Shown here one piece after another: positions 1 through 13,181 of a DNA stretch of 13,181 bases. Numbering within the stretch: position 1 is the first letter of the stretch; each line of letters begins with the position of its first letter. Origin of the DNA: Verrucomicrobiales bacterium (GTDB taxonomy: Bacteria; Verrucomicrobiota; Verrucomicrobiia; Verrucomicrobiales; DEV007); contig JALRFZ010000515.1 of NCBI GenBank assembly GCA_023253615.1, positions 1-13,181 on the forward strand. Reading direction: 5' to 3'. Made by a program: the position numbers and the translations under genes. Under the pieces are notes generated by a model that did not search any database, had not been told where the DNA came from, and was given only the letters and a program-made list of their open reading frames with translations.

Positions 1-196
1 GGACGTTCAGCCGATGGACCACGAGGATTTCCTCTTTCCGGTCACTCAGGGCGAGGGCCGCCGCCGCGTTGCGCTCCGCACGGAAGTCCCTGAGGTCTTC
101 AAAATCACACTGTTCCGCCGCCGGAATACCCGATCCTCCCAAGTTGAGCCGATCGTGGATTTCCTCATTGATTACCGATATCCCAGAGACCGTCAT
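1..196 (-). CDS. Partial CDS (5' end), unrecognised protein, runs off window
   Basis: An open frame starts with ATG at 196 and stays open to the window edge, giving 65 residues. It begins MTVSGISVINEEIHDRL and continues through a Glu/Arg/Ala-rich segment (…DFEDLRDFRAERNAAAALAL…) ending …EEILVVHRLNV at the edge. Codons mostly end in G or C and the product looks soluble and helical, with no signal peptide or membrane segment. The start lies 32 bases inside the preceding prepilin gene, so the two overlap in different frames. An ATGA-coupled start at 168 exists in another frame, but it stops after about 40 residues with a poor, Arg-rich composition, so I prefer the start at 196. Its position directly after a pilin gene suggests a further component of the same filament system. 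No function can be named from this fragment, and the exact start is uncertain because no clear ribosome binding site is seen. Confidence 0.55.
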   Translation of the reverse strand, partial: MTVSGISVINEEIHDRLNLGGSGIPAAEQCDFEDLRDFRAERNAAAALALSDRKEEILVVHRLNV

Positions 197-614
197 TCGG
201 AGAGGCCGAGGGATCGTAAACGGCATTGCCGTTGAGGAAGACCGGAGGCATGCTCGTGATCCGTATCGTGAGAGGTAAGCCTTCGAGCGAATCGACATCC
301 GGAAGGGCGTTTCCGTTGGGAAGATAGGGAACCAGGATGCCGGTCTCCAAGGTTTCCGGAGAACTTGTCGGGTGATCGGCGAGATAGAGCCGCTGGGCCG
401 CGTAGACGGATTGCAGCTCGATGCCCGCCGACTTCCCTTTGCGCCAGGCACTCAGACTTTGGTAGGAAACGATTCCGATGGTCGAGAGCGCGAGGAGGAT
501 GGCGAGAACAAGAGTCAGTTCAACGAGGGACAAGCCTTTCTTCCGCTTTCGGCAAAGGTTGCTGCGGGGTTCCCTGAGCCGGTGAGTGCTGGGGTCACAT
601 TCAAGGTTGTTCAT
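165..614 (-). CDS. Type IV prepilin-like / pseudopilin protein (candidate major subunit)
   Basis: The 149-residue protein has a classic prepilin N-terminus. A basic leader of about 27 residues ends in KRKKG and is followed by LSLVELTLVLAILLALSTIGIV. Cleavage by prepilin peptidase is expected between Gly27 and Leu28, and Glu is at mature position 5 (residue 32). The hydrophobic stretch 28-50 is the filament core helix. The remaining roughly 100 residues form a small globular head, the size expected for a GspG/PilE-type core subunit and smaller than the other pilin-like proteins here. The C-terminus (YDPSASPNDGLWDIGNQ) recalls, from memory, tails of uncharacterised verrucomicrobial prepilins. 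It follows the large tip-like gene after 133 bases, and the gap may hold its own promoter. The leader is longer than usual, but no internal start is obvious. Membership of the prepilin family is clear; the role as major subunit is inferred. Confidence 0.9.
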   Translation of the reverse strand: MNNLECDPSTHRLREPRSNLCRKRKKGLSLVELTLVLAILLALSTIGIVSYQSLSAWRKGKSAGIELQSVYAAQRLYLADHPTSSPETLETGILVPYLPNGNALPDVDSLEGLPLTIRITSMPPVFLNGNAVYDPSASPNDGLWDIGNQ

Positions 615-624
615 AATCGATATC

Positions 625-654
625 AGTGTATCCCTGGGCCCGCCCGAAAATCAA
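625..654 (-). promoter_or_regulatory. Weak candidate sigma70-type promoter before the 149-residue prepilin
   Basis: On the minus strand a TTGATT box (649-654) is separated by 18 bases from TACACT (625-630), each matching 4 of 6 consensus bases. The ATG at 614 lies only about 10 bases beyond the -10 box, so the transcript would have almost no leader. No convincing Shine-Dalgarno sequence sits at the normal distance from that ATG; the nearest purine run is about 17 bases away. The alternative is simple readthrough from the upstream tip-like gene. The call rests on pattern only. Confidence 0.25.
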
Positions 655-698
655 TCCAGATCCGATTGGAATTCCGTTTCCCGCCGAGGCCTCCGGGG

Positions 699-714
699 GC
701 GGAGGGCGCTCCGC
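699..714 (-). other. Short hairpin in the gap between the tip-like gene and the prepilin
   Basis: Perfect 6-base arms (GCGGAG and CTCCGC) flank a 4-base loop about 34 bases past the stop of the 659-residue gene. There is no T-run after it on the minus strand, so it is not a standard intrinsic terminator. It could stabilise the 3' end of the upstream message or dampen readthrough so that pilin is expressed separately. Such hairpins also arise by chance in GC-rich DNA. Confidence 0.25.
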
Positions 715-747
715 AGCATGGACGGGAACGCAGGTCCTTGGGGAAGT

Positions 748-2727
748 TCACGGATGAATTTCCTCGATCATCACGAGCCAGTGCAGAAAGTGAATCGGAG
801 GAATCGCTGCTGGAGAAGTCGCTGAAAAGAGTTCCGCCGAAGTGATGTCCGCCCCGATATCGTCGTCGTCCGCTCCCTTGAAATCGAGGGGCGAGCGGTT
901 CGAATCGGGGCTCTCACTCATCGTATTGATCCGCCCGGAGAGATGCACCGGCGTCGGGACGTTCAGCTGGTGCCCGAAACGCTTTTCGGGGGAAAAAATC
1001 GCGACCGGAGGAAAAAAAGGTTCTCCCTCGGGGAGTCCGCTTCCCGCCGGAGCGGCTGTCGGAACCTGGTTGAAACTCTCCAAGAGATAGACCCGGGTGG
1101 GAGTCACGAGTGCAAAGCCTTCCGCAAAGGCGGAAAAATCAGCGCATCGGCGAAAGGCAACAGCAAACTGGTCGGGTTGTGAGGGAATCGTCGGGACAAT
1201 CAGCCCCGGCGATGCCGCATCGACTTCGATGAGAAGGGAATGATTGACCTCGACATCCGCCGCATCTGCAAGGGTCTGGAGAAAGGAGGGAAACAGTTCC
1301 GGCTGAACGACAAGGGCATGACGCCCGTTTTCGAGAATCTCCGTTTCGAAAGGGATCAGAGGGTCTTCTCCGGCGATGGGGGGGAGCCAGTTTTCTCCGC
1401 GCTCGAGAAGATGAGTGCGGCGTTGGTTGGCGCGATCGAGGTACGAAAACTCGATCACCGTGGGCAGCTGGGACGATGGAGCGACTGCCGTGACGCGGGC
1501 AATCATGGCAGCCTGGTTCGCCCCGCGGGCATAATCGTCCCATCCGACGGGACTTGCCCGGTTGGCGGGGTTGGCGGCGGGGGAACGGTAGAGAAAGTCC
1601 GTCCCTGCCATAACATCGACGAAGAGCGAGCGTGCCTTTTCACTGCCGGATGTGGACGCCGCATAAAAATCCCCCTGCGTTTGCCGTTCGCGTGCCTCGC
1701 GAACCCCGAGATCGTCAAATCCCTCGGAGAGGAATTGCCCACCCACGGAAGCGGGTGCCGCGAGGGAGATGGAGCGCCGTGCCGCAAGCGAACCCGAGGC
1801 TGCGCTGAAGGGTCCGATCGCCTCGAGATCACCTCCGTAGACCGGTCCTTCCACATGGATCCCGCTCCAATTGGTCCCGTCGGCATGGCGCCCCAGGTGA
1901 AGCCTCCCAGACGCGGCAAGAGGGATCTGCGAGGGGACTTCGTAGATGGAAAGCACGTAATTCCTTTCAAGAACCTCGTCCCTTCCGGGGTTGATCCGCG
2001 TGCGAACCGTGAAAAGCCACCAATTCCTCTTCGCCACAAAGAGTGATCCAGGAGCACTGTATCCGAAGCGAATCTGCGGATAAGTGAGAAGGTTGTAACG
2101 GGAATGAACGGTCGATGAAAGCGAAAGTCCCTTCTCGTCAAGGGGGTGGTAGGTTTTGTCCGGGGAAATCAGAGGGATCGTGGCATCAGCGGCGACGAGT
2201 GCGGATGGGAGATTCAAGGTCGCCGGCAGATTTTCGGAGAGTCCCGTGCTCGTTATCAGATTCAAGTTGGCCAAATTGCCAGGAAGAATGAGGCCCTCTC
2301 CGGCGGGCGTTCCCACCGAGAAGTTGTCGTTGAATCCGCTGGATGCGGGGTTTGCCGAGGTCCCGGTAAGACCGAGGGAGGCGATCATCCCGGCCTCGAG
2401 AACCTCTCTGCTGTCGGACAGTTCGATCGCCTCCTCAAAGATGGACGCCCAGGTGAAGGAGGATCCGGAGGAAGGCCCGCCTCCCTCCCGCATCGCACCC
2501 ATGGCACGGTTGGGAATCAGATGAATCAGGGCCGCGAGGAACGCATCCTCCCGATGGGTATAATCCTGACGAAGCTGCGCCTTCGACTGCGTCGTCGCCG
2601 ATCTCAGGGAAACCAGAAAACTTCCCCCGAGGAGGGCAAGGAGAAAACCGGAGACCCCGACCACCATGAGAACGGTCGAGGCTCCCCGCTGCGAACCGTT
2701 TGTTTTGCCAGGACCAAAGCCGTTCAT
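748..2727 (-). CDS. Large pilin-like membrane-anchored protein, candidate GspK/PilX-type tip subunit
   Basis: The 659-residue protein starts with a short polar leader ending SQRG (residues 12-15), then a hydrophobic helix at about 16-40 (ASTVLMVVGVSGFLLALLGG). It continues into a very large exported region. The leader and helix resemble prepilins, but mature position 5 is Leu20 rather than Glu. Loss of Glu5 together with an oversized head is the hallmark of GspK, which caps the pseudopilus with GspI and GspJ. The genes directly upstream encode two ordinary prepilins, in an order matching GspI-J-K. The head is rich in Ser, Ala, Gly and Pro and ends with an acidic patch and LHWLVMIEEIHP; no catalytic motif was recognised. 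The ATG at 2727 lies 20 bases after the previous stop with only a weak ribosome binding site. It is about twice the usual GspK size, so an adhesin or surface-display role is possible. The verrucomicrobial four-gene prepilin cassettes (Verru_Chthon A-D) are a possible relative; I could not test this. Confidence 0.8.
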   Translation of the reverse strand: MNGFGPGKTNGSQRGASTVLMVVGVSGFLLALLGGSFLVSLRSATTQSKAQLRQDYTHREDAFLAALIHLIPNRAMGAMREGGGPSSGSSFTWASIFEEAIELSDSREVLEAGMIASLGLTGTSANPASSGFNDNFSVGTPAGEGLILPGNLANLNLITSTGLSENLPATLNLPSALVAADATIPLISPDKTYHPLDEKGLSLSSTVHSRYNLLTYPQIRFGYSAPGSLFVAKRNWWLFTVRTRINPGRDEVLERNYVLSIYEVPSQIPLAASGRLHLGRHADGTNWSGIHVEGPVYGGDLEAIGPFSAASGSLAARRSISLAAPASVGGQFLSEGFDDLGVREARERQTQGDFYAASTSGSEKARSLFVDVMAGTDFLYRSPAANPANRASPVGWDDYARGANQAAMIARVTAVAPSSQLPTVIEFSYLDRANQRRTHLLERGENWLPPIAGEDPLIPFETEILENGRHALVVQPELFPSFLQTLADAADVEVNHSLLIEVDAASPGLIVPTIPSQPDQFAVAFRRCADFSAFAEGFALVTPTRVYLLESFNQVPTAAPAGSGLPEGEPFFPPVAIFSPEKRFGHQLNVPTPVHLSGRINTMSESPDSNRSPLDFKGADDDDIGADITSAELFSATSPAAIPPIHFLHWLVMIEEIHP

Positions 2728-2747
2728 GATTTCGTGGAATCAGAGGG

Positions 2748-3275
2748 TCAATCCGGGTTGCCACTGTAGGTGATTTCGGAGCCGGTATCATCCTGAAGCG
2801 TGATCTCAAGAATACCGCTCGTGTTCGAGAATCGAACCGCCGAAGGGACGCGGCTTACGGTCCATGAAGGCTCGGCCGGAAAAGCGTTCAGAGGACTCTC
2901 CAGGTAGTATTGGAGACCTCCTTCCCCGTTGGGGCCCTGGCCCAGAAGAGCCCGGCGAATCCTTCCATCAGGTTGGAGAAAACGAAGCTGCAAAACCGTG
3001 CCGGATGAGTCAGGCGCTGGTTGCCCGGCGATCGCGGCAGAGAGGTCGGCATGAATGCGGTAGGAATCGGCACGGCTGATAATCGCGGAGAGAAGTGTAT
3101 TGATCTGCGACGCTTCATCGCGCAGAAACCGAAACTCGGCAATACGGCGGGAGAATTCGATTTGCTGCCCGATCAGTGCAAGCAATCCAATCGCGAGGCC
3201 CAGGGAAATCGATATGGCCATGGCCATTTCGATCAGACTGAAGGCGGCCAGCGGGGAATCTTTCCGAAATTTCAT
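2748..3275 (-). CDS. Prepilin-like protein, GspJ/PilW position, atypical A|F processing site
   Basis: The 175-residue protein begins with an 11-residue leader (MKFRKDSPLAA), then FSLIEMAMAISISLGLAIGLLALIG, a prepilin helix with Glu at mature position 5 (residue 16). The residue before the expected cleavage is Ala11, not the usual Gly. Ala at -1 is known to be tolerated by some prepilin peptidases, but it is uncommon. The head of about 140 residues contains a QLRFLQPDGRIRRALL segment and ends with a beta-rich …LEITLQDDTGSEITYSGNPD. The start overlaps the stop of the preceding prepilin in an ATGA (3272-3275), implying coupled translation. Gene order and medium head size fit a GspJ/PilW-type minor pilin; the family is clear and the subtype is inferred from position. 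Confidence 0.85.
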   Translation of the reverse strand: MKFRKDSPLAAFSLIEMAMAISISLGLAIGLLALIGQQIEFSRRIAEFRFLRDEASQINTLLSAIISRADSYRIHADLSAAIAGQPAPDSSGTVLQLRFLQPDGRIRRALLGQGPNGEGGLQYYLESPLNAFPAEPSWTVSRVPSAVRFSNTSGILEITLQDDTGSEITYSGNPD

Positions 3276-3760
3276 CGCACCCGAAGGATGGTTCGCGCCT
3301 TATGGTAATCACGGCCCGCGATGCGGTAAGAAACAACGGAGCGCGCCTTCCAGGCCTCGGTGCGGGCCGGATTCGTGAGGGCGGTGCCGGTGCCACCGGA
3401 TACACCAAGATTATTGGGATCCGGTTCGCGAAAACGGACGAGAGAGACTCGAATTTCACGACCGCCTGGGTAACGACCGACTACCACCTCTGTTTCGGAA
3501 GATTCGGGATAGGCCGGCCAGGGGGACTCCGCCGAAACAAGATCCTCGAAGGGCAGGCGGGAGGCAAGGGCCGTTTCGCGGGAGAGATAGGCATCCGTCA
3601 AAGACTGCATCGCCGCCCAGGATTGCATCGAGGAAATCTGAATGGAGAGTTTCAAAAGGATCACGGACAAGGCGGTCAGAAGCGCCGTGGTGAGCGTGAT
3701 CTCGACCAAAGTGAAGCCCCGCTGTCCCGGCCGGCGCCGCATCGATGCGTTGAGGGTCAT
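3272..3760 (-). CDS. Prepilin-like protein, GspI/PilV position
   Basis: Starting at the ATG at 3760 gives 162 residues. The leader MTLNASMRRRPGQRG is followed by FTLVEITLTTALLTALSVILL, with cleavage expected after Gly15 and Glu at mature position 5 (residue 20). The frame is open further upstream, but that would place 39 extra residues before the leader and overlap the preceding gene, so I reject it. A second ATG at 3742 (MRRRPGQRG) would give a shorter leader and is a real alternative. The head is rich in Arg and Glu (…EVVVGRYPGGREIRVSLVRF…) and ends KARTILRVR. The stop overlaps the next prepilin start by four bases, so the two minor pilins are probably made in fixed ratio. First place in an I-J-K-like order suggests a GspI/PilV role. 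Confidence 0.87.
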   Translation of the reverse strand: MTLNASMRRRPGQRGFTLVEITLTTALLTALSVILLKLSIQISSMQSWAAMQSLTDAYLSRETALASRLPFEDLVSAESPWPAYPESSETEVVVGRYPGGREIRVSLVRFREPDPNNLGVSGGTGTALTNPARTEAWKARSVVSYRIAGRDYHKARTILRVR

Positions 3761-3794
3761 CGGTCCGGAAGGCGCGGAAACGAATAAGCGGGGT

Positions 3795-4814
3795 TCAGTT
3801 GACCGTATTGAGGGTCCCGTTGACACGAATCGTTCGATCGACTTCAATGGTGAGATGTTGGAGTCTCTCCGTGCCAAAGGGTGTCACGGTAATCACCTCG
3901 AGGGTCCAGGACCCGTCCTCCCGGATGACCGAGTCAAGATCTTTTACCTGAAGGATTTCGTTCTGGGGGACGGAGCCGTCCACGAGGACCGAGGAACCCG
4001 GGACGATGATCCCGGTTGTACCGAGGACGGGAGGACCTTTGTAGGCCTGGAGATAGGTCCATGAATCGGGGTAGAGGTCCACGTATTCAATCGAGAGGAC
4101 GGGAAAGGCACCTTTGATGATCTGGCCATTGACAAGCCCTTCAAGTGAGTGCGTGGTCATGGGCCAAACCTGAAGTGTGACGGAGTCGAGAAGGGACTCC
4201 GGGGCCTGATAGTCCTCGAAAGAAAACACCGAAAACCGTTCCTCGCCTCGAACTTTGGTCCGGTCGGCTCCGGGAATGGCATTCACGGGATAAGCGAGGG
4301 AGTGGGTCCCGTTGTCCGTGAGGGTTCCCTCGGAAAGAAGATCCGCCAAGCTGCGGTCGATTTCCGTTCCGAAGGTCTGATCGGGATAATTCTGGACGTG
4401 CCTCAGGAGTTTTACGGAACGGGCTGCCGGAGGCGCCGCAGGATCGGAGGAGAGTCCAACCATGGTCACCTCGATGGAAAAGGGTCGGTCCGCCCTTGTA
4501 CGGGGTACGGTTTCATAGGGGTCTTCGGAAAGGATCCGGACATTGGCAACAGGGATGTAGGAATTGACGTAAGTGGAATCGAGAAGGTAGCTTTTGAGCG
4601 GGGCATTCCGGATCGACCAGAGCTCGAAGCGTGCGCCGTGGGGATTGATTTCCAAAGGAGACTGGATCTGCCCTGCCTTGGAAACGCTTACATCCCACTC
4701 GAGGTTGTCCGGCATCTGAATTTGGCGGATGAAGAAAACATAATCGTTTGAGCAAGCATCTCGGGTGGGACCGCACGTGCAGAAAAGCAGAAGGGCGATG
4801 AACGTTTTTTTCAT
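3795..4814 (-). CDS. Exported beta-rich protein of unknown function, third of a conserved trio
   Basis: The 339-residue protein has a short signal sequence (MKKTFIALLLFCTCG) and several Cys residues near it, but no good lipobox. The mature part looks beta-rich and periplasmic or surface-exposed. Notable segments are SEDPYETVPRTRADRPFSIEVTM and, at the C-terminus, WTLEVITVTPFGTERL before the final VDRTIRVNGTLNTVN. I recall similar wording in hypothetical proteins of Verrucomicrobiota found beside prepilin genes; this is memory, not a search. The gene starts nine bases after the stop of its neighbour and lies 34 bases before the first minor prepilin, so it belongs to the filament operon. No enzyme motif was seen. 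It could be a filament-associated protein, a chaperone or a secreted substrate. Confidence 0.8.
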   Translation of the reverse strand: MKKTFIALLLFCTCGPTRDACSNDYVFFIRQIQMPDNLEWDVSVSKAGQIQSPLEINPHGARFELWSIRNAPLKSYLLDSTYVNSYIPVANVRILSEDPYETVPRTRADRPFSIEVTMVGLSSDPAAPPAARSVKLLRHVQNYPDQTFGTEIDRSLADLLSEGTLTDNGTHSLAYPVNAIPGADRTKVRGEERFSVFSFEDYQAPESLLDSVTLQVWPMTTHSLEGLVNGQIIKGAFPVLSIEYVDLYPDSWTYLQAYKGPPVLGTTGIIVPGSSVLVDGSVPQNEILQVKDLDSVIREDGSWTLEVITVTPFGTERLQHLTIEVDRTIRVNGTLNTVN

Positions 4815-4823
4815 TTGATTGCT

Positions 4824-5516
4824 TCAAGGTTGAGGGACGACACGGATGCCAGCGGGGGAGGGAGTCTTCCGGAGGGGGGATTCACCGGCCCGCTCCGACG
4901 ATTCACCGGATTCGGCGGGGAAAGCAGCCGGCAGCACGGAGATCGGACCACCTTCATAAGTCGCGATGCTGACTTTTCCACTGGAGCGCAGGGCCTGCGT
5001 CTCTTCCGGAGAAAAAGGCATCTTGCCGAGGGCCCGCTCGCGGCTGACCGGTTCGGCGTGAATCCAAGACCGGTTCCTCTCGAGGAATTTCGCCCAGGGC
5101 AGCAATTCGCTCCCATCCCGGATGCCCACCCGACTCTTGAGCGCTTCCGGGAGGTGCAGAACGGCGCGTTTCGGCACCAAGGTCATCACCCCGGCATGAT
5201 TCAGAACGGTGGACTCAGCGATGAGATCACGACCGTGCGTTCCTTTGGAGGGATCCACGCCGGGATTCGCGGGCGGCGCCAATTTGCGAATCGGATCGTT
5301 CTGCCTCGAGTGGCGAAGGCGGTTGGTTAGCTCTTCGGCGGAGACCGGCTCGGTCATGGCCGGCTTCACCCGCTTTTCATCGGCAAGCTCCTGGGCAAAG
5401 GAGAGCGGCAAAACAACGGAAACGGCCAAAAAGAAGAACGAGAGACGCTCCGATGCGAGTAAAAGTTTCATTCCGATGGACTCTGCGGATTTTCCGGATT
5501 CGGCGGAGTCCGACAT
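4824..5516 (-). CDS. Exported protein of unknown function, second of a conserved trio
   Basis: The 230-residue protein is drawn from the ATG at 5516. A second ATG at 5471 (residue 16, MKLLLASERL) gives a more standard signal peptide, whose hydrophobic core FFFLAVSVVLPLSFA ends in a plausible signal peptidase I site (SFA|QE). Neither start has a strong ribosome binding site; an AAGG lies very close to the upstream ATG. The mature protein has a charged, helix-prone N-terminal part (PVSAEELTNRLRHSRQNDP) and then a compact region STVLNHAGVMTLVPKRAVLHLP…GPISVLPAAFP. The tail is Ser/Glu/Pro-rich and disordered. It sits 21 bases after the first trio gene. No known domain was recognised, though I recall similar verrucomicrobial hypotheticals. 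The function is unknown; co-transcription with pilin genes suggests an envelope role in assembly or anchoring. Confidence 0.78.
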   Translation of the reverse strand: MSDSAESGKSAESIGMKLLLASERLSFFFLAVSVVLPLSFAQELADEKRVKPAMTEPVSAEELTNRLRHSRQNDPIRKLAPPANPGVDPSKGTHGRDLIAESTVLNHAGVMTLVPKRAVLHLPEALKSRVGIRDGSELLPWAKFLERNRSWIHAEPVSRERALGKMPFSPEETQALRSSGKVSIATYEGGPISVLPAAFPAESGESSERAGESPLRKTPSPAGIRVVPQP

Positions 5517-5537
5517 GCCTTTTTCCCGGAGGGAGGT

Positions 5538-6467
5538 TCAACGCAGCCTGCGCCCCCTCGAACCGGAGGAAATCTCGTCGTCGATCGTGGGATCGGTGTC
5601 GCTTTGGTGAAGAGGGCTGGAACCGGGATTGCTTGAATCGACGCCATCCGCGTTGTTTCCGTGCCCGTTGTTGCCGTTTACCTTATCGTAAAAACTGACC
5701 AGCAGAGCCAGATCCTGAAGATCGTAGCCGCCGTCGTATGGGTTGGAATGGGTCAGTTCCATGAGATAAACCACATCCCGGGGGCCTATTTTGATACGGC
5801 CCTGGCTGTCGAGAATGGGGGAAAGAAACGCTTCGAGGGAAGGCTGCTGGTATAGTGGCGATGTCGTCGGCGGCGTGTCACCGTTGCGAAGCGCCCGGAT
5901 ATTGGGCGACCCGGCCGCGGAGTAGAAGCGTGTGCTCCAGGACGAATTGGAAACGGAATAACGGCCCGCCACGTCAAGCGTTTCCCCGGCTAGGAGACGT
6001 GTGGAGTAAACGATCTTGTTCGGAACGACCTCGGCGTTCGTTCCGTAGAAGATGCGCGAGAGACTCCCGCCGCTTTTGCTCACGCTCGCCTCGGTGGGAA
6101 CCCACTCCCAGCGGGCGATCCGCCCGCGGGAGTCGAGCCAGACGCGCTTCACGGAAGTGCCGAGGACCCGGATGTCGGCATACACCTCGCGCTGGGCCCG
6201 GATTGTGCCGCCATTCTGAATCGTGACGATGTCAGAGACAACCTCCGGAACCGTGACACTCCAGGTAAGCGTTGGGTGTGTCCCGGCCTGGACGACCGTG
6301 GGATAGGCGCTGAGCGTGCCAACGGGAATCACGGGCGACCGGCTCTGACCGTGACCGGACCAAGTGGCGAGTAGGACAACGGCAGAAGCGAGAAGTGATT
6401 TGATTGTCACCACATTTTTCCCAACCGAGGCAAGGGAGGCGAAACCGTTTTTCATGATTGCATGCAT
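5538..6467 (-). CDS. Exported protein of unknown function, first of a conserved trio and first gene of the filament operon
   Basis: I place the start at the ATG at 6467 (309 residues). AGGG lies nine bases upstream, and the promoter candidate would start transcription near 6527, which excludes the longer GTG start there. A signal sequence covers about residues 1-42 (MHAIMKNG…, hydrophobic SLLASAVVLLATW, then SGHGQS). The mature protein begins with a beta-rich stretch containing GTLSAYPTVVQAGTHPTLTW, which suggests an immunoglobulin-like fold. It has a middle part with RVWLDSRGRIARWEW, then GPRDVVYLMELTHSNP and DLQDLALLVSFYDKVN. The tail (NNGHGNNADGVDSSNPG, then acidic and Arg-rich) looks flexible and could bind calcium. 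From memory, the VVYLMEL and NNGHGNN regions recur in hypothetical proteins of Verrucomicrobiota. No enzymatic motif was found; an extracellular structural or matrix role is inferred. Confidence 0.8.
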   Translation of the reverse strand: MHAIMKNGFASLASVGKNVVTIKSLLASAVVLLATWSGHGQSRSPVIPVGTLSAYPTVVQAGTHPTLTWSVTVPEVVSDIVTIQNGGTIRAQREVYADIRVLGTSVKRVWLDSRGRIARWEWVPTEASVSKSGGSLSRIFYGTNAEVVPNKIVYSTRLLAGETLDVAGRYSVSNSSWSTRFYSAAGSPNIRALRNGDTPPTTSPLYQQPSLEAFLSPILDSQGRIKIGPRDVVYLMELTHSNPYDGGYDLQDLALLVSFYDKVNGNNGHGNNADGVDSSNPGSSPLHQSDTDPTIDDEISSGSRGRRLR

Positions 6468-6695: not shown

Positions 6696-7529
6696 TCAGT
6701 TCCCCGGGAGGGACCGGCCCTCGGTCGCGTGCGGCACGGCTTTTTCGCGCTTTTGCCATGCGGCGAGCAATCGCCCGAGAAAGGCACGGCGCTCATTGAT
6801 TTCATTCCGCCGCTCTTCGGAGAGAAGATCCCACCGTCCCGCCGCCCTGCTTTTGGCCCGGAGGGCGTCAAACCGGTTCAGGCAAGCGGCCGCATTCGAG
6901 ATCCGGGATTCGCCCTTTGCCGGAAGGGGGCGGACACGATTCGTCGCACTTGCGGAGTGACTGGCGGAGAGGTGGAGATTGATTGACGCGGCAGCGGCCG
7001 TAAGCCAGGGCTCGGGATCCTCGGTCTCCCCGGAGATCCAGTGGAGTGTGAATTCGGAGAGCTCATCGGCAAGTTGCGACCCTTCCACCTGACCGATCGC
7101 GTCCATCGAGGTAAGAAAAAGATACAGCGCCTCGTAGATGGTGTAACTTCCGGGATCGAGGAGAAAGGCGTTGACCAGCATTTGACGGAGATCCCGACGG
7201 ATCGCGGCCGCGTGGGTGCCGCCGGGGGGGCTGGGATTCGTCCGACGCGACTTCTCCTCCCGCGCCCACGCCAGCCATCCGTCTCCGGCGGAATGGATTC
7301 CGCCCTCGAGGCCGAGATGCCAGACCTTGTCGATGTCATCCTCGGCGAGACGTGAGAAAAGGGAGCCAAACGCCGAACCGCGAAGAGCGAAGGGGTTCGG
7401 GTTCAGGATGGCGTGACGTGGAGGCTCCTGCGCAACCGGCGAAGAAGGGAAGCCGATTCCGGAGAGACCAACGGCGGCAATACCCGCCGCGAGCGCCACG
7501 GCGGCGAGGATGGGCTCCATGGATTTCAT
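6696..7529 (-). CDS. Signal-anchored helical protein of unknown function, linked to the ABC transporter
   Basis: The 277-residue protein has an N-terminal hydrophobic segment at about 5-27 (ILAAVALAAGIAAVGLSGIGF) that is either a signal peptide or a membrane anchor. The rest appears largely helical. The segment NAFLLDPGSYTIYEALYLFLT followed later by DPEPWLTAAAASINLHL resembles TPR-like helical repeats, though I cannot confirm repeats. The C-terminal 80 residues are basic and likely coiled (RFDALRAKSRAAGRWDLL…INERRAFLGRLLAAW). The start at 7529 is preceded by AAGG at a good distance and lies four bases after the permease stop; a second ATG at 7520 is possible. It is the last gene before the terminator. 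By position it could be the third component of the transporter, as PilG is next to PilH and PilI in Myxococcus xanthus, but I see no sequence evidence that links it to PilG. Confidence 0.8.
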   Translation of the reverse strand: MKSMEPILAAVALAAGIAAVGLSGIGFPSSPVAQEPPRHAILNPNPFALRGSAFGSLFSRLAEDDIDKVWHLGLEGGIHSAGDGWLAWAREEKSRRTNPSPPGGTHAAAIRRDLRQMLVNAFLLDPGSYTIYEALYLFLTSMDAIGQVEGSQLADELSEFTLHWISGETEDPEPWLTAAAASINLHLSASHSASATNRVRPLPAKGESRISNAAACLNRFDALRAKSRAAGRWDLLSEERRNEINERRAFLGRLLAAWQKREKAVPHATEGRSLPGN

Positions 7530-7533
7530 GCGA

Positions 7534-8301
7534 CTACCTTCCGGGGCGAAAAAGAGTCAAAGCAATCAGGCTGATGATGATGCCCCAACCACCGAAATAG
7601 AGGAGAAATTGCCCGAAGACGCCCGCAGGAAGAGGTCCGAGCTTGAAGACGAGCCGGTCCGTCAAATCGGCGAGGTGGTACTGTGGCAGAAAGAGTTTCC
7701 CCAAGGTCGAGGCCATCCCGCCTCCGGAAAGAAACGGGGCGAACCTTTCTTGGATCACCATTCCGTAAATGAGCAAGGCGGCGACTGTGAGCCAGGAGAC
7801 GACCGGGTTCAGCCGTGTGCCAAGGCAAAAGGCGAGGAGGCAGAGTGGGGCCGTGATCATCAAATAAAGGGATCCGTATTGGAAATTGGTGACCGACCAG
7901 AGACGGGCCTCCGCCGGATCCGAAGGGGCGCAGAGAAAGAGGGAGACTAGGATGGTCTCGGTCAGCAGCAGGATTGAGGGACAAAGAAGGCCCGCGTTTA
8001 GTTGGAGAACCAGGGTGGCTTTCGGGAACCGGGCAGAGGAAGCGGGAAGCAGCAGTTCGAATATCCCCCCGCGCCGCCAGCGGTGACCGGTTGAGGAAGC
8101 CTCCACGAAAATCCAGATCACCGTTACCAGCCAGAGGAGGACCCATGAGGCCTGAGCCCGGGCCGGCTCGATGAGCGAAGGCTTGAGAGCGACGGGGGCC
8201 AGTTCCGGAAGAAATACCGCGAACAGGGGAAGGAGGAGGGCGAAGACGAGGATGACCTTCCGCGAAAAGAGAGAGGACAGGTAGAGTCGAAGACCATTCA
8301 T
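7534..8301 (-). CDS. ABC transporter permease (ABC-2-like), six membrane segments
   Basis: The 255-residue protein is strongly hydrophobic, with six likely membrane spans at roughly 16-38, 50-68, 96-124, 143-163, 166-184 and 228-251. A short cytoplasmic N-terminus (MNGLRLYLSSLFSRK) precedes the first span. A basic stretch TGHRWRRGGIFELLLPASS after span 2 resembles the coupling region by which ABC-2-type exporters contact their ATPase. Length and layout match ABC-2 permeases, which act as homodimers with the ATPase subunit to move polymers, lipids or proteins across the inner membrane. The start overlaps the ATPase stop in an ATGA (8298-8301), so the two subunits are translationally coupled. 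The substrate cannot be told from sequence; location in a filament operon suggests a role in filament assembly or a surface polymer. Confidence 0.85.
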   Translation of the reverse strand: MNGLRLYLSSLFSRKVILVFALLLPLFAVFLPELAPVALKPSLIEPARAQASWVLLWLVTVIWIFVEASSTGHRWRRGGIFELLLPASSARFPKATLVLQLNAGLLCPSILLLTETILVSLFLCAPSDPAEARLWSVTNFQYGSLYLMITAPLCLLAFCLGTRLNPVVSWLTVAALLIYGMVIQERFAPFLSGGGMASTLGKLFLPQYHLADLTDRLVFKLGPLPAGVFGQFLLYFGGWGIIISLIALTLFRPGR

Positions 8302-9023
8302 ACTTCAGAACGGGGAGCGAAAAGCGAGTGTCTCAGGCCCGACCAGTCGAGGATTCCATCCTCCGGCTTCACAAGTCCGACGGTGTTTTCCCGAATGACC
8401 AGTGCGGCGTCGGCCTCGAGCGTGGCATCGTCGGGGTGGTGCGAAACGATCCGGCAGACTCCCGTCCTGCGCTCGCGCCACCAGGATCGGACGATGTCCC
8501 GGGCCACGAAGTCCAGGCCTGAGAGAGGTTCGTCGAAAAGCAGGACGCAACCGCCCTTCCGGTGTGCCGCCGCCGCTTCCCCCAGAACGGCGACAATCTT
8601 CTGGCGGTTTCCACGCGACAGGGTGGCGTAATCGCGATCGAGCGGCAATTCCAATTCGCCGGCAAAGGAGAGAGAGGTCTTGAAAGCGTCCCGGTCGAGA
8701 AGCGCCCGCAGGATTTCACGGGGTTTCTGGCCGCCATCGAAGGTGAGATCGTCGCAAAAGTGGAGGAGTCCGCCGTCGATGCGCACGGCCTCTTCCAGAG
8801 GGGTGATGAGACCGCCAAGAGTCCGTAGGAGAGTGGTTTTGCCGGAACCGTTCCGGGCCAGAAGAAGATGGTGCCCGGGACCGAGAAATATCTCTGACTC
8901 GAAGGCAGCGACATGTACCTGTGGTCGCAGCCGCGGGCGATAGCCGATCACAAGCCCCTTCGGGAAGAAGACTCCGCCGCCGGACGGGGCGGTTGCACGG
9001 GTGCTGATCTCAGTTGAATGCAT
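8298..9023 (-). CDS. ABC transporter ATP-binding protein
   Basis: From the ATG at 9023 the protein has 241 residues, normal for a stand-alone ABC ATPase. Visible motifs are a P-loop ARNGSGKTT (56-64), the signature LSRGNRQK (135-142), Walker B VLLFDEP with the catalytic Glu at 165, a D-loop SGLD, and the H-loop His at about 195 (IVSHHPDD). The first Gly of the P-loop is Ala, and no clear Q-loop Gln is seen (LHFCDDLTF is at that place); otherwise it looks active. The frame is open further upstream to a GTG at 9182 that overlaps the previous stop by four bases. That would add 53 residues without ABC character, so I chose 9023, although its ribosome binding site is poor. It pairs with the permease encoded next. 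The signature and Walker B place it among exporter-type ATPases. Confidence 0.88.
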   Translation of the reverse strand: MHSTEISTRATAPSGGGVFFPKGLVIGYRPRLRPQVHVAAFESEIFLGPGHHLLLARNGSGKTTLLRTLGGLITPLEEAVRIDGGLLHFCDDLTFDGGQKPREILRALLDRDAFKTSLSFAGELELPLDRDYATLSRGNRQKIVAVLGEAAAAHRKGGCVLLFDEPLSGLDFVARDIVRSWWRERRTGVCRIVSHHPDDATLEADAALVIRENTVGLVKPEDGILDWSGLRHSLFAPRSEV

Positions 9024-9178
9024 CGTCGAGGAGGCTATCCCACCGGCTTTGTTCCTGCAAGGGTTCGCTTGAGAAGTAACGGCGGAAAGGTTCTGGAAAT
9101 CGGGATGATCTTCCCCGCCGTTCTCGCCTGATATCCTCTCTTTCGCGACGTCTGTCGGAGCCGGACCGGATACGCCGG

Positions 9179-9571
9179 TCACGGAGGAGGCCCGTCGCTC
9201 GTAAGCCATTGCCAGGCTTCGCCGGGCAAATCGGAAAAAACGAGAACGAGAAGGACAAGCCCGAAGGAGATCCAAAGGACGGTCATGGTAAAGGAACGGT
9301 TCGGATTCGAAAAGAGACGGGCCGCAATTCCAGCCCGGTCCGCGATCCGTGAAGTATAGGTAATGTTTTCAGCTTCGAGGGCGCCGGTGATTTGCCCGAT
9401 CGTCCGCTCGTCAAGCGCGGTGATCCGGTAGAGATACCTCCCCCCTTTCTCCGCGTCATTCTCCTCGAGATGAACGCCGCGGGGAAGCGCGCGGGGAAGA
9501 GTATTGCAGTAAAATCTGGTTTGGTGAACGAATCTCCGCTGGAGCCAGCGGTCAAAGGAGGTCTGTTGCAT
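9179..9571 (-). CDS. Small protein with a C-terminal membrane span, unknown function
   Basis: The 130-residue protein has a charged N-terminal domain (residues 1-90), one hydrophobic span at about 95-113 (TMTVLWISFGLVLLVLVF), and a 17-residue tail ending SDGPPP. There is no N-terminal signal, so it is probably tail-anchored or inserted with its soluble domain in the cytoplasm. The segment YLYRITALDERTIGQITGALEAENITYTSR has the alternating pattern of a small alpha/beta domain, but I do not recognise the family. It starts 35 bases after the platform protein gene and precedes the ABC ATPase, within the motor operon. A cytoplasmic domain tethered to the inner membrane beside PilB and PilC would suit an assembly adaptor; this is inference. 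The ribosome binding site is weak. Confidence 0.78.
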   Translation of the reverse strand: MQQTSFDRWLQRRFVHQTRFYCNTLPRALPRGVHLEENDAEKGGRYLYRITALDERTIGQITGALEAENITYTSRIADRAGIAARLFSNPNRSFTMTVLWISFGLVLLVLVFSDLPGEAWQWLTSDGPPP

Positions 9572-9606: not shown

Positions 9607-10776
9607 TCAGATGCCCTGTCCGCTCATCATCTTCGGGCCCATCAGGAAAATCGGAAGAAAAGAGCCGCCGAAAACCAGGGTGATGAGAAGGCCGGCCATG
9701 ACCAGAACGATGAAGTTCACAATCTGCGTGAAATCGCCGATCACCTGATCGACCTCCTCCTCATACATCGTGGTGAGAAGCAGCAACTGTTCGTCGAGGG
9801 ACGAGGAACGCTCTCCGATCGAGACGAGGTGCGCCACCTGCGGATCACAAGAGGTGAATTTCCGCAAGGCTTCCGAGAAAGGCAGTCCTGTCTCGATGTA
9901 GCGCCTTCCCGCGCTGCGAAGCTCTTCATACATCGGTGTCCCTTTGAGGGAACCAGCGGCGATATCGACGGACTTAGCCAGGTTGATCCCGTTTGAATAA
10001 AGCATCTCAAGTGAACCGATGAAAAGGAGTTGCCGCATTCCCATGACGAGCTTGCGAAGGAGGCGCCACCTTGCCATCAGGAAAAAAACCACCGTGCTGC
10101 GCACCCGCTCGATGAAAAGAAAAGAAAAAACAGAAGCGCAAAGGAGAAGAATCACCGGGATCCAGACTTTGCGGGTGGCGTGGCTGATTTGAAAAAGTAC
10201 CGCCGAGACAGGATCGGGCTCCTGACCGATATCGAGGATGATGTCTTCGATCTGGGGAATGACGCGGATTTGTGAAAAAACAAAAAGGAGCAGGAGAGCG
10301 AAAATAATGATCCCCGGAAGCAAGGTCGCCTTCCGCATCCGCGAACGGAATTCCGATTCCTTCTTCAAACGGTCGGCGATGGACTGAAAGGCTCGCGCAA
10401 GCTGCCCCGAATCCGCCCCGGCCCGGATCAGGGAGAGGATTTTTTCGTCGAAACGACCGGTTTTCTTGAAGGCGGCGTCGACAGGCATTCCATTCCCGAG
10501 GGATTCCCTGATCTCTGCCGTGAGTTTTGTGATCAGGAGGGATGGATGATTGGCACCGTAGTAAGAAAGGGCGTCCGCGGTATTGATGTTGGCCCTCAGC
10601 ATCGACGCAAGGCTGCGGCATAACTTGATGATCTCCTTGCCCGGAAGATTTTTCGAGAGACTGATTCCGAGAAATGGCCTCTTTTCCGCTGGTTTGGCCG
10701 GGGGATTGACCGGCTTCTCGAGGGCGGCTTCGAGGAGGTCGCGTGCGGAGGATCGCCTGGGTGGAGGGGCGCTCAT
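9607..10776 (-). CDS. Inner-membrane platform protein of the PilC/GspF family
   Basis: The 389-residue protein shows the two repeated T2SSF domains of the family. The first covers about 46-170 (FL-type LCRSLASMLRANINTADALSYY… then IRAGADSGQLARAF). The second covers about 250-375 (LLFIGSLEMLYSNGINLAKSV… then SIGERSSSLDEQL). Both carry the paired pattern of an N-terminal helix hairpin, a Gly-x-x motif and a Gly/Glu-Ser-Leu segment. Three membrane spans are likely at 153-171, 205-223 and 354-376. It sits in the inner membrane and couples the hexameric assembly ATPase to extraction and stacking of pilins. The N-terminal 35 residues are Pro- and Ala-rich and probably flexible. The start overlaps the ATPase stop in an ATGA (10773-10776). 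PilC and GspF cannot be separated on this sequence. Confidence 0.95.
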   Translation of the reverse strand: MSAPPPRRSSARDLLEAALEKPVNPPAKPAEKRPFLGISLSKNLPGKEIIKLCRSLASMLRANINTADALSYYGANHPSLLITKLTAEIRESLGNGMPVDAAFKKTGRFDEKILSLIRAGADSGQLARAFQSIADRLKKESEFRSRMRKATLLPGIIIFALLLLFVFSQIRVIPQIEDIILDIGQEPDPVSAVLFQISHATRKVWIPVILLLCASVFSFLFIERVRSTVVFFLMARWRLLRKLVMGMRQLLFIGSLEMLYSNGINLAKSVDIAAGSLKGTPMYEELRSAGRRYIETGLPFSEALRKFTSCDPQVAHLVSIGERSSSLDEQLLLLTTMYEEEVDQVIGDFTQIVNFIVLVMAGLLITLVFGGSFLPIFLMGPKMMSGQGI

Positions 10777-12461
10777 TCAGAGTTGGTGAGATCGATGGAT
10801 TTGCTCAGGGCCTCCAGATCGGTGCGGCCCTCGCGGAGCAGCGCAAGACCGCTGTCTCTCAGCGAAGGAAGCCGGCCGTCCCGCCGGACTTCGCGCTCCA
10901 TCTCGTAGGGACTCAGGGTTCCCTTGGAGAGTTCGTCCGACCAACGGGCCGTGATCGGGATGATCTCGAGGATGGCGGCGCGTCCGTGATACCCGCGCCC
11001 CTGGCACTCGTGACACCCCTCCGGGTTGCGCGCGTAAACGGGGACATCCCTCATGGAATCGTCCAGGTTGAACTTGCGGACATCCCGTTCCAGAAGCCGG
11101 GGCTTGAGCACCTTGCAGACCGGGCAGAGCAGTTTGATGAGACGCTGGGCGCACGCCGCTTTGAGGGTTTGTGCAATCTTCCAGCGTTCAATGCCAATCT
11201 GTTCGAAACGCTCGATGATTTGTGAAGCTCTCGGAGTGTGAATCGTGGTCAAAACCTTGTGACCGGTGATCGCCGCCTCGATTGCGAGCTCCGCCGAATC
11301 AAGATCCCTCACCTCGCCCATCAGAATGATATCGGGATCGCTCCGCATGAAGCTGGCGATCATCGCCTTGAATTCGTTCGGCCGGATATCGCAGTGGATC
11401 ACTCCCGGTATTTCATCTTCGACCGGATTTTCGAGTGTGAGAATATTGTCCTCGGGACGGTTCAACTCACGCAGCATTGCGTTCAGGGTCGTGGACTTTC
11501 CGGAACCGGTCGGTCCGGACATCACGATGATTCCGGAGGGAATCGCCATGACCCTCTCGAGCTCGAAAAGAGTTGCGGGATCGAACGCGAGCGAACCGAC
11601 GCCCAGTTTTGCCTCGAAATGGGCCTTGTCGAGGAGCCGCATGGTCACGTGATAACCGCGGTAGGTGCGGTGCCGTTCAAAGCGGATATCGATGGAACGA
11701 TTCAGGTAATTCACCCCGAACCGTCCGGAAATCCCCGGATTTTTCACCCGCTCTTCGGGCGCCAAGCCCATGAGATTGAGGAGAAAGGCATCGATCCGAT
11801 TCTTCAATTTCATCGGAATGGGATACCTCATCCCCATGTCTCCATCGATGCGGTAGCTGTAGGTGACCTCGCCGATCCCGCACTTCACATGGATGTCCGA
11901 GGCTCTCAGGCGGATGGCATCGGACAGGATCTTGGCGACAAGTCTCGCGAGCGGCTCTTCGTGTTCCGCGTTGATGTCGAAATAAAGTTTCTCTTCGGAC
12001 CTTTCATCGACCTCGATCGACTCGAGTTCGTTCCGTGAAGGCCCTTGCGTTCCGGAAACGGATTCGATCAAGGGAATCATCTCGGCGTATGGCACGAGAA
12101 CCCGGACGGGTTCAAGATCTTCGAAGCGCGAGGAAATGGCGTCCTCCCCCGTCGTATCCCAGGGATTGACGACGGCGAAGTAAAAACGGGACCGGTCTCT
12201 GGCGATCGGAACAAAGAGCCCGCGATTGAGGAGAGCCGGATCAAAGATTTCGAGAAGGACGGGATCGACGAAGTCCCGGATCCGCCTCAAAAAGGGAATG
12301 CCGCACTGGGAAGCGATGATTGAGAGGATCCTTGCCGAGGACGATGCCCGGATGGCGGCGTCATCTCCGGGAAAGTAACCCTCGGGGGCCAGGGCGATGA
12401 TTTCGTCAACAACCCGCCGGGTAAGCGTTTCGTTTACGGGAAATCCAAGGTCGAGGTTCAT
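10773..12461 (-). CDS. Filament assembly ATPase, PilB/GspE family
   Basis: Starting at the ATG at 12461 gives 562 residues; a TTG 27 bases upstream is less likely because this ATG forms an ATGA overlap with the preceding stop. Residues 50-135 resemble the MshEN/T2SSE N-terminal domain (CGIPFL… VNPWD). The ATPase core has Walker A GPTGSGKST (316-324), an Asp-box-like segment TLENPVEDE (342-350), Walker B DPDIILMGEVRD (376-387), and a His box TGHKVLTTIHT. A tetracysteine zinc site follows (CPVC at 446-449, CHEC at 483-486), typical of PilB/GspE and absent from PilT, so this is an assembly rather than retraction ATPase. The Asp box reads ENPVE instead of the usual EDPVE. The hexamer acts in the cytoplasm under the platform protein encoded next and powers filament growth. 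Confidence 0.96.
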   Translation of the reverse strand: MNLDLGFPVNETLTRRVVDEIIALAPEGYFPGDDAAIRASSSARILSIIASQCGIPFLRRIRDFVDPVLLEIFDPALLNRGLFVPIARDRSRFYFAVVNPWDTTGEDAISSRFEDLEPVRVLVPYAEMIPLIESVSGTQGPSRNELESIEVDERSEEKLYFDINAEHEEPLARLVAKILSDAIRLRASDIHVKCGIGEVTYSYRIDGDMGMRYPIPMKLKNRIDAFLLNLMGLAPEERVKNPGISGRFGVNYLNRSIDIRFERHRTYRGYHVTMRLLDKAHFEAKLGVGSLAFDPATLFELERVMAIPSGIIVMSGPTGSGKSTTLNAMLRELNRPEDNILTLENPVEDEIPGVIHCDIRPNEFKAMIASFMRSDPDIILMGEVRDLDSAELAIEAAITGHKVLTTIHTPRASQIIERFEQIGIERWKIAQTLKAACAQRLIKLLCPVCKVLKPRLLERDVRKFNLDDSMRDVPVYARNPEGCHECQGRGYHGRAAILEIIPITARWSDELSKGTLSPYEMEREVRRDGRLPSLRDSGLALLREGRTDLEALSKSIDLTNSE

Positions 12462-13051
12462 GCGGCGAAATGACGTTGACAGAGGCAATGCCAGCCTTCG
12501 AAGTCAGTCCGGACAGCGAAGACGACCGGAACGATGAGCCCTCGGCGACGGAAGATCCGGGGAATTTCGGACGCGAGTGCGTCAACGGTGAATGGATTGA
12601 TCGATGCAAGGGTCAAGAAACAACCGGACTCGGCTTGAAGAACGGGGACCCGGAGAAGCCGGCACAGCTCGGCGATGTCGCCCTCCTGCGTGTAAAATTC
12701 GATCGGAACGGCCATCCGGTCGGCAAAACCGAGGAAGGGAAAACGCAGTCCGGAAGCAACGGCAAACTGTTCGAGAACCCGCTCCCAAAGGTGTCGGGGA
12801 AGACCGCTGTCCGAGAGGGCGCGGGAAAGGAAATCCTCCGGCACCTCACAACCGGCCCCGCAAACCTCCTCCGAGAGGTAGTCCCTTAGGAGTGTCTCTC
12901 CGATGGCAAGCGCGGGACAATGGGCTTGGACGACGGCGAGGGTCCTTTGCGCCACCGTTTTTCGTATCGATTGTCCGAGATTCTTCGGATCGAGTTTGTC
13001 GCCGCCCTCTCCGGGATCGCCTTGAAACAATGCGATGGTTGCGCCGTCCAT
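12458..13051 (-). CDS. Protein with a free-standing MshEN-like (ATPase N-terminal type) domain
   Basis: The 197-residue soluble protein has no Walker motifs. Its C-terminal half (about 97-187) parallels the N-terminal domain of the ATPase encoded next. VASGLRFPFL matches IASQCGIPFL, and LRVPVLQAESGCFLTLASINPF matches LFVPIARDRSRFYFAVVNPW, followed in both by a helix and a hydrophobic strand. The N-terminal half (ALAIGETLLRDYLSEE…VPEDFLSRALSDSGLP…WERVLEQFAVASG) is helical, as is the stretch ahead of the MshEN domain in PilB/GspE. In some ATPases MshEN binds cyclic di-GMP; the binding residues are not clear enough here to claim that. The stop overlaps the ATPase start (ATGA), implying a stoichiometric partner. 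It may regulate the ATPase or be a duplicated domain; family assignment is by eye. Confidence 0.72.
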   Translation of the reverse strand: MDGATIALFQGDPGEGGDKLDPKNLGQSIRKTVAQRTLAVVQAHCPALAIGETLLRDYLSEEVCGAGCEVPEDFLSRALSDSGLPRHLWERVLEQFAVASGLRFPFLGFADRMAVPIEFYTQEGDIAELCRLLRVPVLQAESGCFLTLASINPFTVDALASEIPRIFRRRGLIVPVVFAVRTDFEGWHCLCQRHFAA

Positions 13052-13138
13052 GATGAATGTTGCGTCCCTCTCATTTCCGGAGACCGCCCGCTGCCCGGGG
13101 AACCACCGACCGGCCCGCGGATCCGTGCGGTAAACGTC

Positions 13139-13181
13139 TCAGCGGGAAGGTTTTTTCGAAGGGGGAGTGTAGAGTTGTCTC
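13139..13181 (-). CDS. Possible 3' end of an upstream gene
   Basis: A frame open from the window edge encodes RQLYTPPSKKPSR and then stops with TGA at 13139-13141. The Lys/Arg/Pro-rich ending looks like a natural C-terminus, but 13 residues are too few to identify a protein. The next 87 bases (13052-13138) remain open in the same frame up to the ATG at 13051 and show no clear promoter or terminator. Confidence 0.3.
   Translation of the reverse strand, partial: RQLYTPPSKKPSR

Follow-up and report, generated by a model that had tools for sequence, protein, structure and literature searches.

A candidate type IV pilus of Verrucomicrobiales with a giant ComZ-like pilin and three associated, likely exported proteins

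The competence pilus of Thermus thermophilus contains an oversized pilin, ComZ, whose large beta-solenoid is related to ice-binding proteins and which is encoded beside a GspI-like minor pilin (PMC6561018). ComZ is the proposed DNA receptor at the Thermus pilus tip. In GspI-GspJ-GspK and PilV-PilW-PilX tips, a small, a medium, and a large pilin follow one another and the last lacks Glu5; GspK measures about 330 residues. Verrucomicrobia further possess the Verru_Chthon cassette (TIGR02600 and partners), which bears prepilins and includes one very large member. A secretin-based type IV pilus of the Amuc_1098 type, present in Akkermansia and other Verrucomicrobia, is known from Akkermansia according to PMC4960237, and PMC3724824 describes the ATP-binding cassette (ABC) transporter PilG/PilH/PilI of Myxococcus xanthus as indispensable for pilin transport across the inner membrane. 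Here, we analyzed a 13,181-nucleotide stretch of DNA from a Verrucomicrobiales bacterium ("the window"; contig JALRFZ010000515.1 of assembly GCA_023253615.1), which carries what looks, from its sequence, like a type IV pilus system with a giant pilin (k659) and three accompanying genes, t309, t230, and t339 (the trio).

The reading we favor—at roughly even confidence—is that of a type IV pilus with k659 as a giant ComZ-like cap and the three likely exported trio proteins as dedicated partners of this cap. As k659 and t339 share their host genomes and are neighbors in most of them, the trio likely works with the pilus tip. The window is an entire contig (C712; C, G, and L numbers denote contigs, genomes, and loci) of a draft genome (G000: 5.0 Mb, 802 contigs, 84.7% complete) and, by our listing of open reading frames (ORFs), is almost filled by one co-directional minus-strand series. 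A previous reading of the letters (hereafter, the sequence-only reading) had singled out seven consecutive minus-strand genes, which form the distal half of this series (aa, amino acids):

5538..6467, minus strand: t309, trio protein 1, 309 aa from an internal ATG of a longer ORF (alignment A3)
4824..5516, minus strand: t230, trio protein 2, 230 aa (alignment A8, 27 rows)
3795..4814, minus strand: t339, trio protein 3, 339 aa (homologues, predicted fold)
3272..3760, minus strand: m162, minor prepilin, I-like, 162 aa inside a 201-aa ORF (TIGR02532 above cut-off)
2748..3275, minus strand: m175, minor prepilin, J-like, 175 aa (weak TIGR02532, E 0.52; alignment A10)
748..2727, minus strand: k659, giant K-like pilin, 659 aa (ComZ-like predicted fold, without Glu5)
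165..614, minus strand: p149, probable major pilin, PilA-like, 149 aa (TIGR02532 above cut-off)

All seven ORFs were recovered at these positions, and since their homologues keep the same order in many genomes, they are genes rather than chance ORFs.

The sequence-only reading had recognized two minor prepilins, an oversized pilin-like protein, and a small prepilin, with an I-J-K-like order and loss of Glu5 in the last large member, and each of these points held. As in the known tips, m162, m175, and k659 are collinear small, medium, and large prepilins, with k659 far larger than GspK. The N termini of p149 (G/LSLVE, the slash standing between positions −1 and +1) and m162 (G/FTLVE) are of class-III type, with Gly-1 and Glu5, and that of p149 matches the Myxo PilA model (E 3.6e-5, far under the model cut-off). 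An acidic residue occupies +5 throughout the m162 alignment A9, whereas k659 (RG/ASTVL) lacks Glu5, as do all rows of its alignment A2 (Glu at +5 in 0 of 22; both alignments judged by eye). m175 (A/FSLIE) keeps Glu5 and carries Ala at −1; by eye, Ala replaces Gly there in the window and five of 23 aligned relatives, that is, in six of 24 rows of A10.

The AlphaFold model of k659 (predicted local distance difference test [pLDDT] 84) combines a pilin-like 68-residue helix (12–79) with a beta-rich head, and its best structural match is ComZ (PDB 6qvi, the ComZ-PilA2 structure; residues 213–652, modest score). Like ComZ, k659 is an oversized pilin-like protein with an I-like neighbor, here m162; it differs in having no significant sequence match in PDB, and a role in DNA binding would follow by analogy with ComZ only. 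Any link of its helix and beta-rich body to a GspK-type pilin domain would be indirect, through the ComZ match. The Thermus locus is not known to contain a trio. At least 55 homologues of k659 were counted. Tandem duplications of m162-m175-k659 (G362, G320) or of k659 alone (G007), as well as a lone second k659 (G025), were seen among loci L151, L162, L059, and L118.

None of the trio proteins matches a Pfam or NCBIfam family, and from their hydrophobic N termini they are likely exported, as the sequence-only reading had it. Searches of 5.8 billion proteins (E <= 0.001) returned 1384 homologues of t339 and 616 of t309; among the 120 listed for each, those named belong to Verrucomicrobiota, save one protein per list from a metagenome-assembled genome labelled Bacteroidia. 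t339 is the best-conserved member. Its AlphaFold model (pLDDT 85.7) predicts tandem domains of immunoglobulin/fibronectin type III (Ig/FnIII)-like fold, with many partial matches to Ig/FnIII-like rods, including RbmA, a biofilm protein, and the adhesin SiiE; such matches bear on architecture rather than function. In t309, a conserved core is followed by a variable tail, often basic at its end (A3), and there is no PDB-sequence match, while the short t230 has a conserved central G..TLVPK.AVLH.PE core (A8). In the window, the end of t309 (5538–5640) holds an NNGHGNN..DGVD..NPG..D.DP..DDE stretch plus basic residues, and this end region on its own gave short matches in proteins of other Verrucomicrobiota.

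Across 56 relatives, t339 was found in 30 genomes (34 distinct copies, one split over two contigs) and k659 in 31, namely the same 30 plus G016, where it is merely a 60-residue piece at a contig end. In a phylum sample of 337 genomes, t339 and k659 were each detected in 16, and these were identical. The profile of abcP255, the permease-like protein of an ABC module in the same series (A7), scored at least 206 bits in those 16 genomes and at most 38 bits in 12 others. t309 occurred in 12 of the 16 carriers, with weak or partial matches in eight genomes outside the order. Family f2 has 11 carriers, and in these the permease and k659 are on different contigs or more than 25 kb apart; because the two are so far apart there, linkage does not explain the presence of the permease. 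t339 and k659 are patchily present inside one genus; carriers fall into four families (f1, f2, f4, and f6), three of which (f1, f2, and f4) also hold non-carriers, and neither gene is present in the 19 phylum-sample genomes listed for genus g4.

These counts depend on how the profiles were made. A1, A2, A7, and A3 derive from loci found via t339, so that matches in genomes that gave rows (in the phylum sample, G000, G040, G044, G047, and G050; for A3, G000 only) arise partly by construction; the named record L040 is a row of A1, A2, and A3. Per phylum genome, at most 6 (t339), 3 (k659), 8 (abcP255), or 7 (t309) candidates were scored. The figure 1/C(337,16) for the shared set of 16 carriers disregards relatedness and is not taken here as a probability. 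Near-identical or partial rows, and some for reasons of space, were left out before alignment (A1, 7 of 34; A2, 3 of 24; A3, 4 of 23; A7, 1 of 21; A8, 6 of 32; A9, 3 of 25; A10, 2 of 25), and A4, A5, and A6 used 81 of 120, 51 of 55, and 81 of 120 listed homologues, respectively.

Of the 34 t339 copies, 26 (in 25 genomes) have m162, m175, or k659 no more than 1.5 kb away; of the remainder, one is cut by a contig end and seven are unlinked, two of the latter on short contigs (L053, where 1,952 bases follow downstream, and L063, cut at the t339 end). Trio and tip are both present yet unlinked in G039 (Sulfuriroseicoccus oceanibius), G041, G280, G283, and apparently G045. The sequence-only reading had asked whether trio homologues always neighbor prepilin genes, and had staked its claim on their not lying mostly elsewhere: most t339 copies in the relatives do adjoin prepilin genes, and t339 and k659 co-occur even where unlinked, but the association is not invariable, as unlinked extra trio copies exist. 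Beside such unlinked copies, we also noticed a further gene whose product, some 260 aa long, begins with a hydrophobic stretch and has no Pfam match (L070:8649-9434, L073:2511-3305).

Upstream of the seven genes, the series extends to position 13051 with a pilus motor, a platform, and an ABC transporter, the complete order being a197-PilB-PilC-tm130-ABC ATPase-abcP255-x277-t309-t230-t339-m162-m175-k659-p149:

12458..13051, minus strand: a197, conserved protein directly upstream of the PilB-like ATPase (ORF; homologues)
10773..12488, minus strand: PilB/GspE-type assembly ATPase, 571 aa (PF00437, E 9.4e-77; MshEN above cut-off)
9607..10776, minus strand: PilC/GspF-type inner-membrane platform protein (PF00482, E 4.2e-33, above cut-off)
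9179..9571, minus strand: tm130, small conserved protein whose C-terminal part includes a hydrophobic segment (profile A11)
8298..9275, minus strand: ABC transporter ATPase (PF00005, E 4.1e-7, above cut-off); coordinates of the longest ORF, the true start probably further inside
7534..8301, minus strand: abcP255, ABC permease-like membrane protein (profile A7)
6696..7529, minus strand: x277, third ABC-module member with an N-terminal hydrophobic segment, by which it may be exported or anchored (adjoins abcP255 in 21 of 24 loci)

The best NCBIfam models of the ATPase (PilB TIGR02538, E 1.9e-89) and the PilC model for the platform protein (E 8.7e-36) both scored under their cut-offs. a197 and x277 had no significant match, and tm130 and abcP255 no family match, in Pfam or NCBIfam; homologues of a197 directly precede gspE in L038, L039, L119, and L122. 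In 65 compared loci (L039 and L041 being one stretch), the ABC ATPase adjoins abcP255 in 24, with x277 present too in 21 of these. The gene set of the sequence-only reading is real, but leaves out the ABC module that travels with the system. As in Myxococcus PilG/H/I, the ABC genes stand inside a type IV pilus locus; the likeness is one of position only, and abcP255 and x277 match no NCBIfam model.

Profile A11 detected tm130 in 27 of the 56 relatives. These comprise 22 of the 23 t339 carriers that belong to the genus, two of the seven outside it, and G016, G018, and G032, in which t339 was not found. Either the drafts are incomplete, or the core machine can do without the tip set or diverge from it. 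In G018 and G032, tm130 stands where neither t339 nor k659 was found.

The secretin lies beyond the window. Contig C790 of the same genome (locus L125) overlaps window positions 12869–13181 (313 bases, 95.2% identity)—suggesting two strains binned in one draft genome—and carries, upstream of the window series, a 741-aa secretin that matches PilQ and GspD about equally, as well as a GspM-like protein (28.8 bits, under the model cut-off). Its join to the upstream end of the window is likely; in the close relative G026, a secretin and a 220-aa neighbor directly precede a197 on a single contig. One long contig of G012 holds the trio (divergent), m162-m175-k659, the ABC ATPase, permease, x277, a PilT-family ATPase (TIGR01420, E 1.1e-71, under the model cut-off), and a 605-aa protein, followed by a GspM-like protein (189 aa), a 209-aa protein, a PilQ/GspD secretin, a197, PilB, PilC, tm130, and p149; as to a PilM-PilN-PilO-PilP alignment complex, the 605- and 209-aa proteins had no significant family match, and the 189-aa one is the GspM-like protein. 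Nineteen of the 65 loci have an ATPase of this superfamily in the equivalent position, the match to PilT referring to G012 alone.

The system combines T2SSE and T2SSF domains and TIGR02532 prepilins (p149, m162), all above cut-off, with a secretin on C790 and, in the relative G012, a PilT-family ATPase. A type II secretion system (T2SS) would have a GspC, GspD, GspG, and GspM set and no PilT; here, GspM-like and GspD/PilQ-like proteins are present, together with the PilT-family ATPase of G012. The sequence-only reading had matched the tip to type II secretion; the I-J-K-like set stands, but the label is too narrow because of the G012 PilT-family ATPase, which also sets the system apart from GspI-J-K systems, the ambiguous secretin, and the ComZ match of k659. 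For a PilY1-type tip, PF05567 matched none of the 56 relatives, yet control genomes gave no match either. Elsewhere in G000, a secretin on contig C368 reaches 979 bits with the Amuc_1098 family, above cut-off, and comes with a PilM gene resembling Amuc_1101 (592 bits against a cut-off of 650), and C305 carries a genuine TIGR02600 protein (Verru_Chthon protein A); as both stand elsewhere, the window system is separate from either. k659 has no TIGR02600 match at E up to 1.

If our favored reading is right, m162, m175, and k659 would come together at the pilus base as an initiation complex of the I-J-K type, as their order, size, and Glu5 loss suggest, and the PilB-type ATPase and the PilC-type platform would then insert p149 behind this complex, with the ABC module perhaps helping pilin delivery by analogy with PilG/H/I in Myxococcus. 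The fibre would be pushed through the secretin, carrying the beta-rich k659 head outward; the likely exported trio, with t339 as a predicted Ig-like rod, may attach to this head as it emerges, while still in the periplasm, and leave the cell together with it to serve in surface binding. Retraction of the fibre with its ligand, for which DNA is the precedent from ComZ, would fall to PilT.

Several points weigh against this reading. The genomes are related, so the co-occurrence counts are not independent. Trio copies are dispersed, with up to five t339 per genome versus one or two k659 (gene pieces counted once, candidates per genome capped in number), and in 18 hand-chosen phylum loci nine of 20 t339 copies lie far from prepilins. 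In S. oceanibius, an unlinked trio copy stands divergent beside a 2,954-aa cadherin/bacterial Ig/laminin-G protein (L074:6987-9294, 9984-18848). Given the dispersed copies and this neighbor, trio use may be wider than this pilus. The lineage-specific filament with dedicated partners put forward by the sequence-only reading is supported by adjacency and by co-occurrence even without linkage; given the unlinked extra copies, neighborhood is not absolute. A further, rather unlikely idea is a pilus with exchangeable heads, in which one ComZ-like beta-solenoid tip would take any of several trio sets, so that the bacterium could equip the same retractable fibre with various heads for surface binding.

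Alternatively, the trio might be a periplasmic chaperone or assembly set that stays in the cell and keeps the bulky k659 head folded and soluble until the tip is built. Co-occurrence, adjacency, and likely export all fit this proposal, as does the very general Ig-like fold of t339, but a chaperone of a single client hardly accounts for several scattered trio copies against one or two k659, and the Sulfuriroseicoccus copy beside the cadherin/laminin-G protein speaks against it, too; we consider it somewhat unlikely. Doubtful in our view is that the filament acts as a type II secretion pseudopilus expelling the trio as cargo: dispersed paralogues would be expected of secreted substrates, and the GspM-like protein and PilQ/GspD-ambiguous secretin agree, but PilT—used in PMC6060248 as a marker separating type IV pili from T2SS—has a family member in the G012 locus and superfamily ATPases at the corresponding place in others. 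That trio and tip genes share ancestry and an operon without functional link is very improbable since, for all the relatedness of the genomes and the extra trio copies, both genes are kept or missing together, also when unlinked, patchily within one genus and with carriers and non-carriers in three families.

For the type IV pilus with dedicated cap partners, the kind of machine is known; what would be new is a partner set on a pilus with a ComZ-like tip, of which we found no description in the open-access literature searched. If true, ComZ-type tips would occur outside Thermus as well, and many bacteria of a single order would hold a second pilus, its tip with three protein partners of its own and an ABC transporter. 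Families whose window members match no Pfam or NCBIfam model—those of t339 (1384 relatives), t309 (616), and k659 (at least 55)—would gain leads to function, and one could test how so bulky a tip pilin is assembled, gets through a secretin, and is put to use. As a side observation, the Verru_Chthon protein A family was matched in 49 of the 56 relatives, with 10 or 11 matches (gene pieces included) in three genomes.
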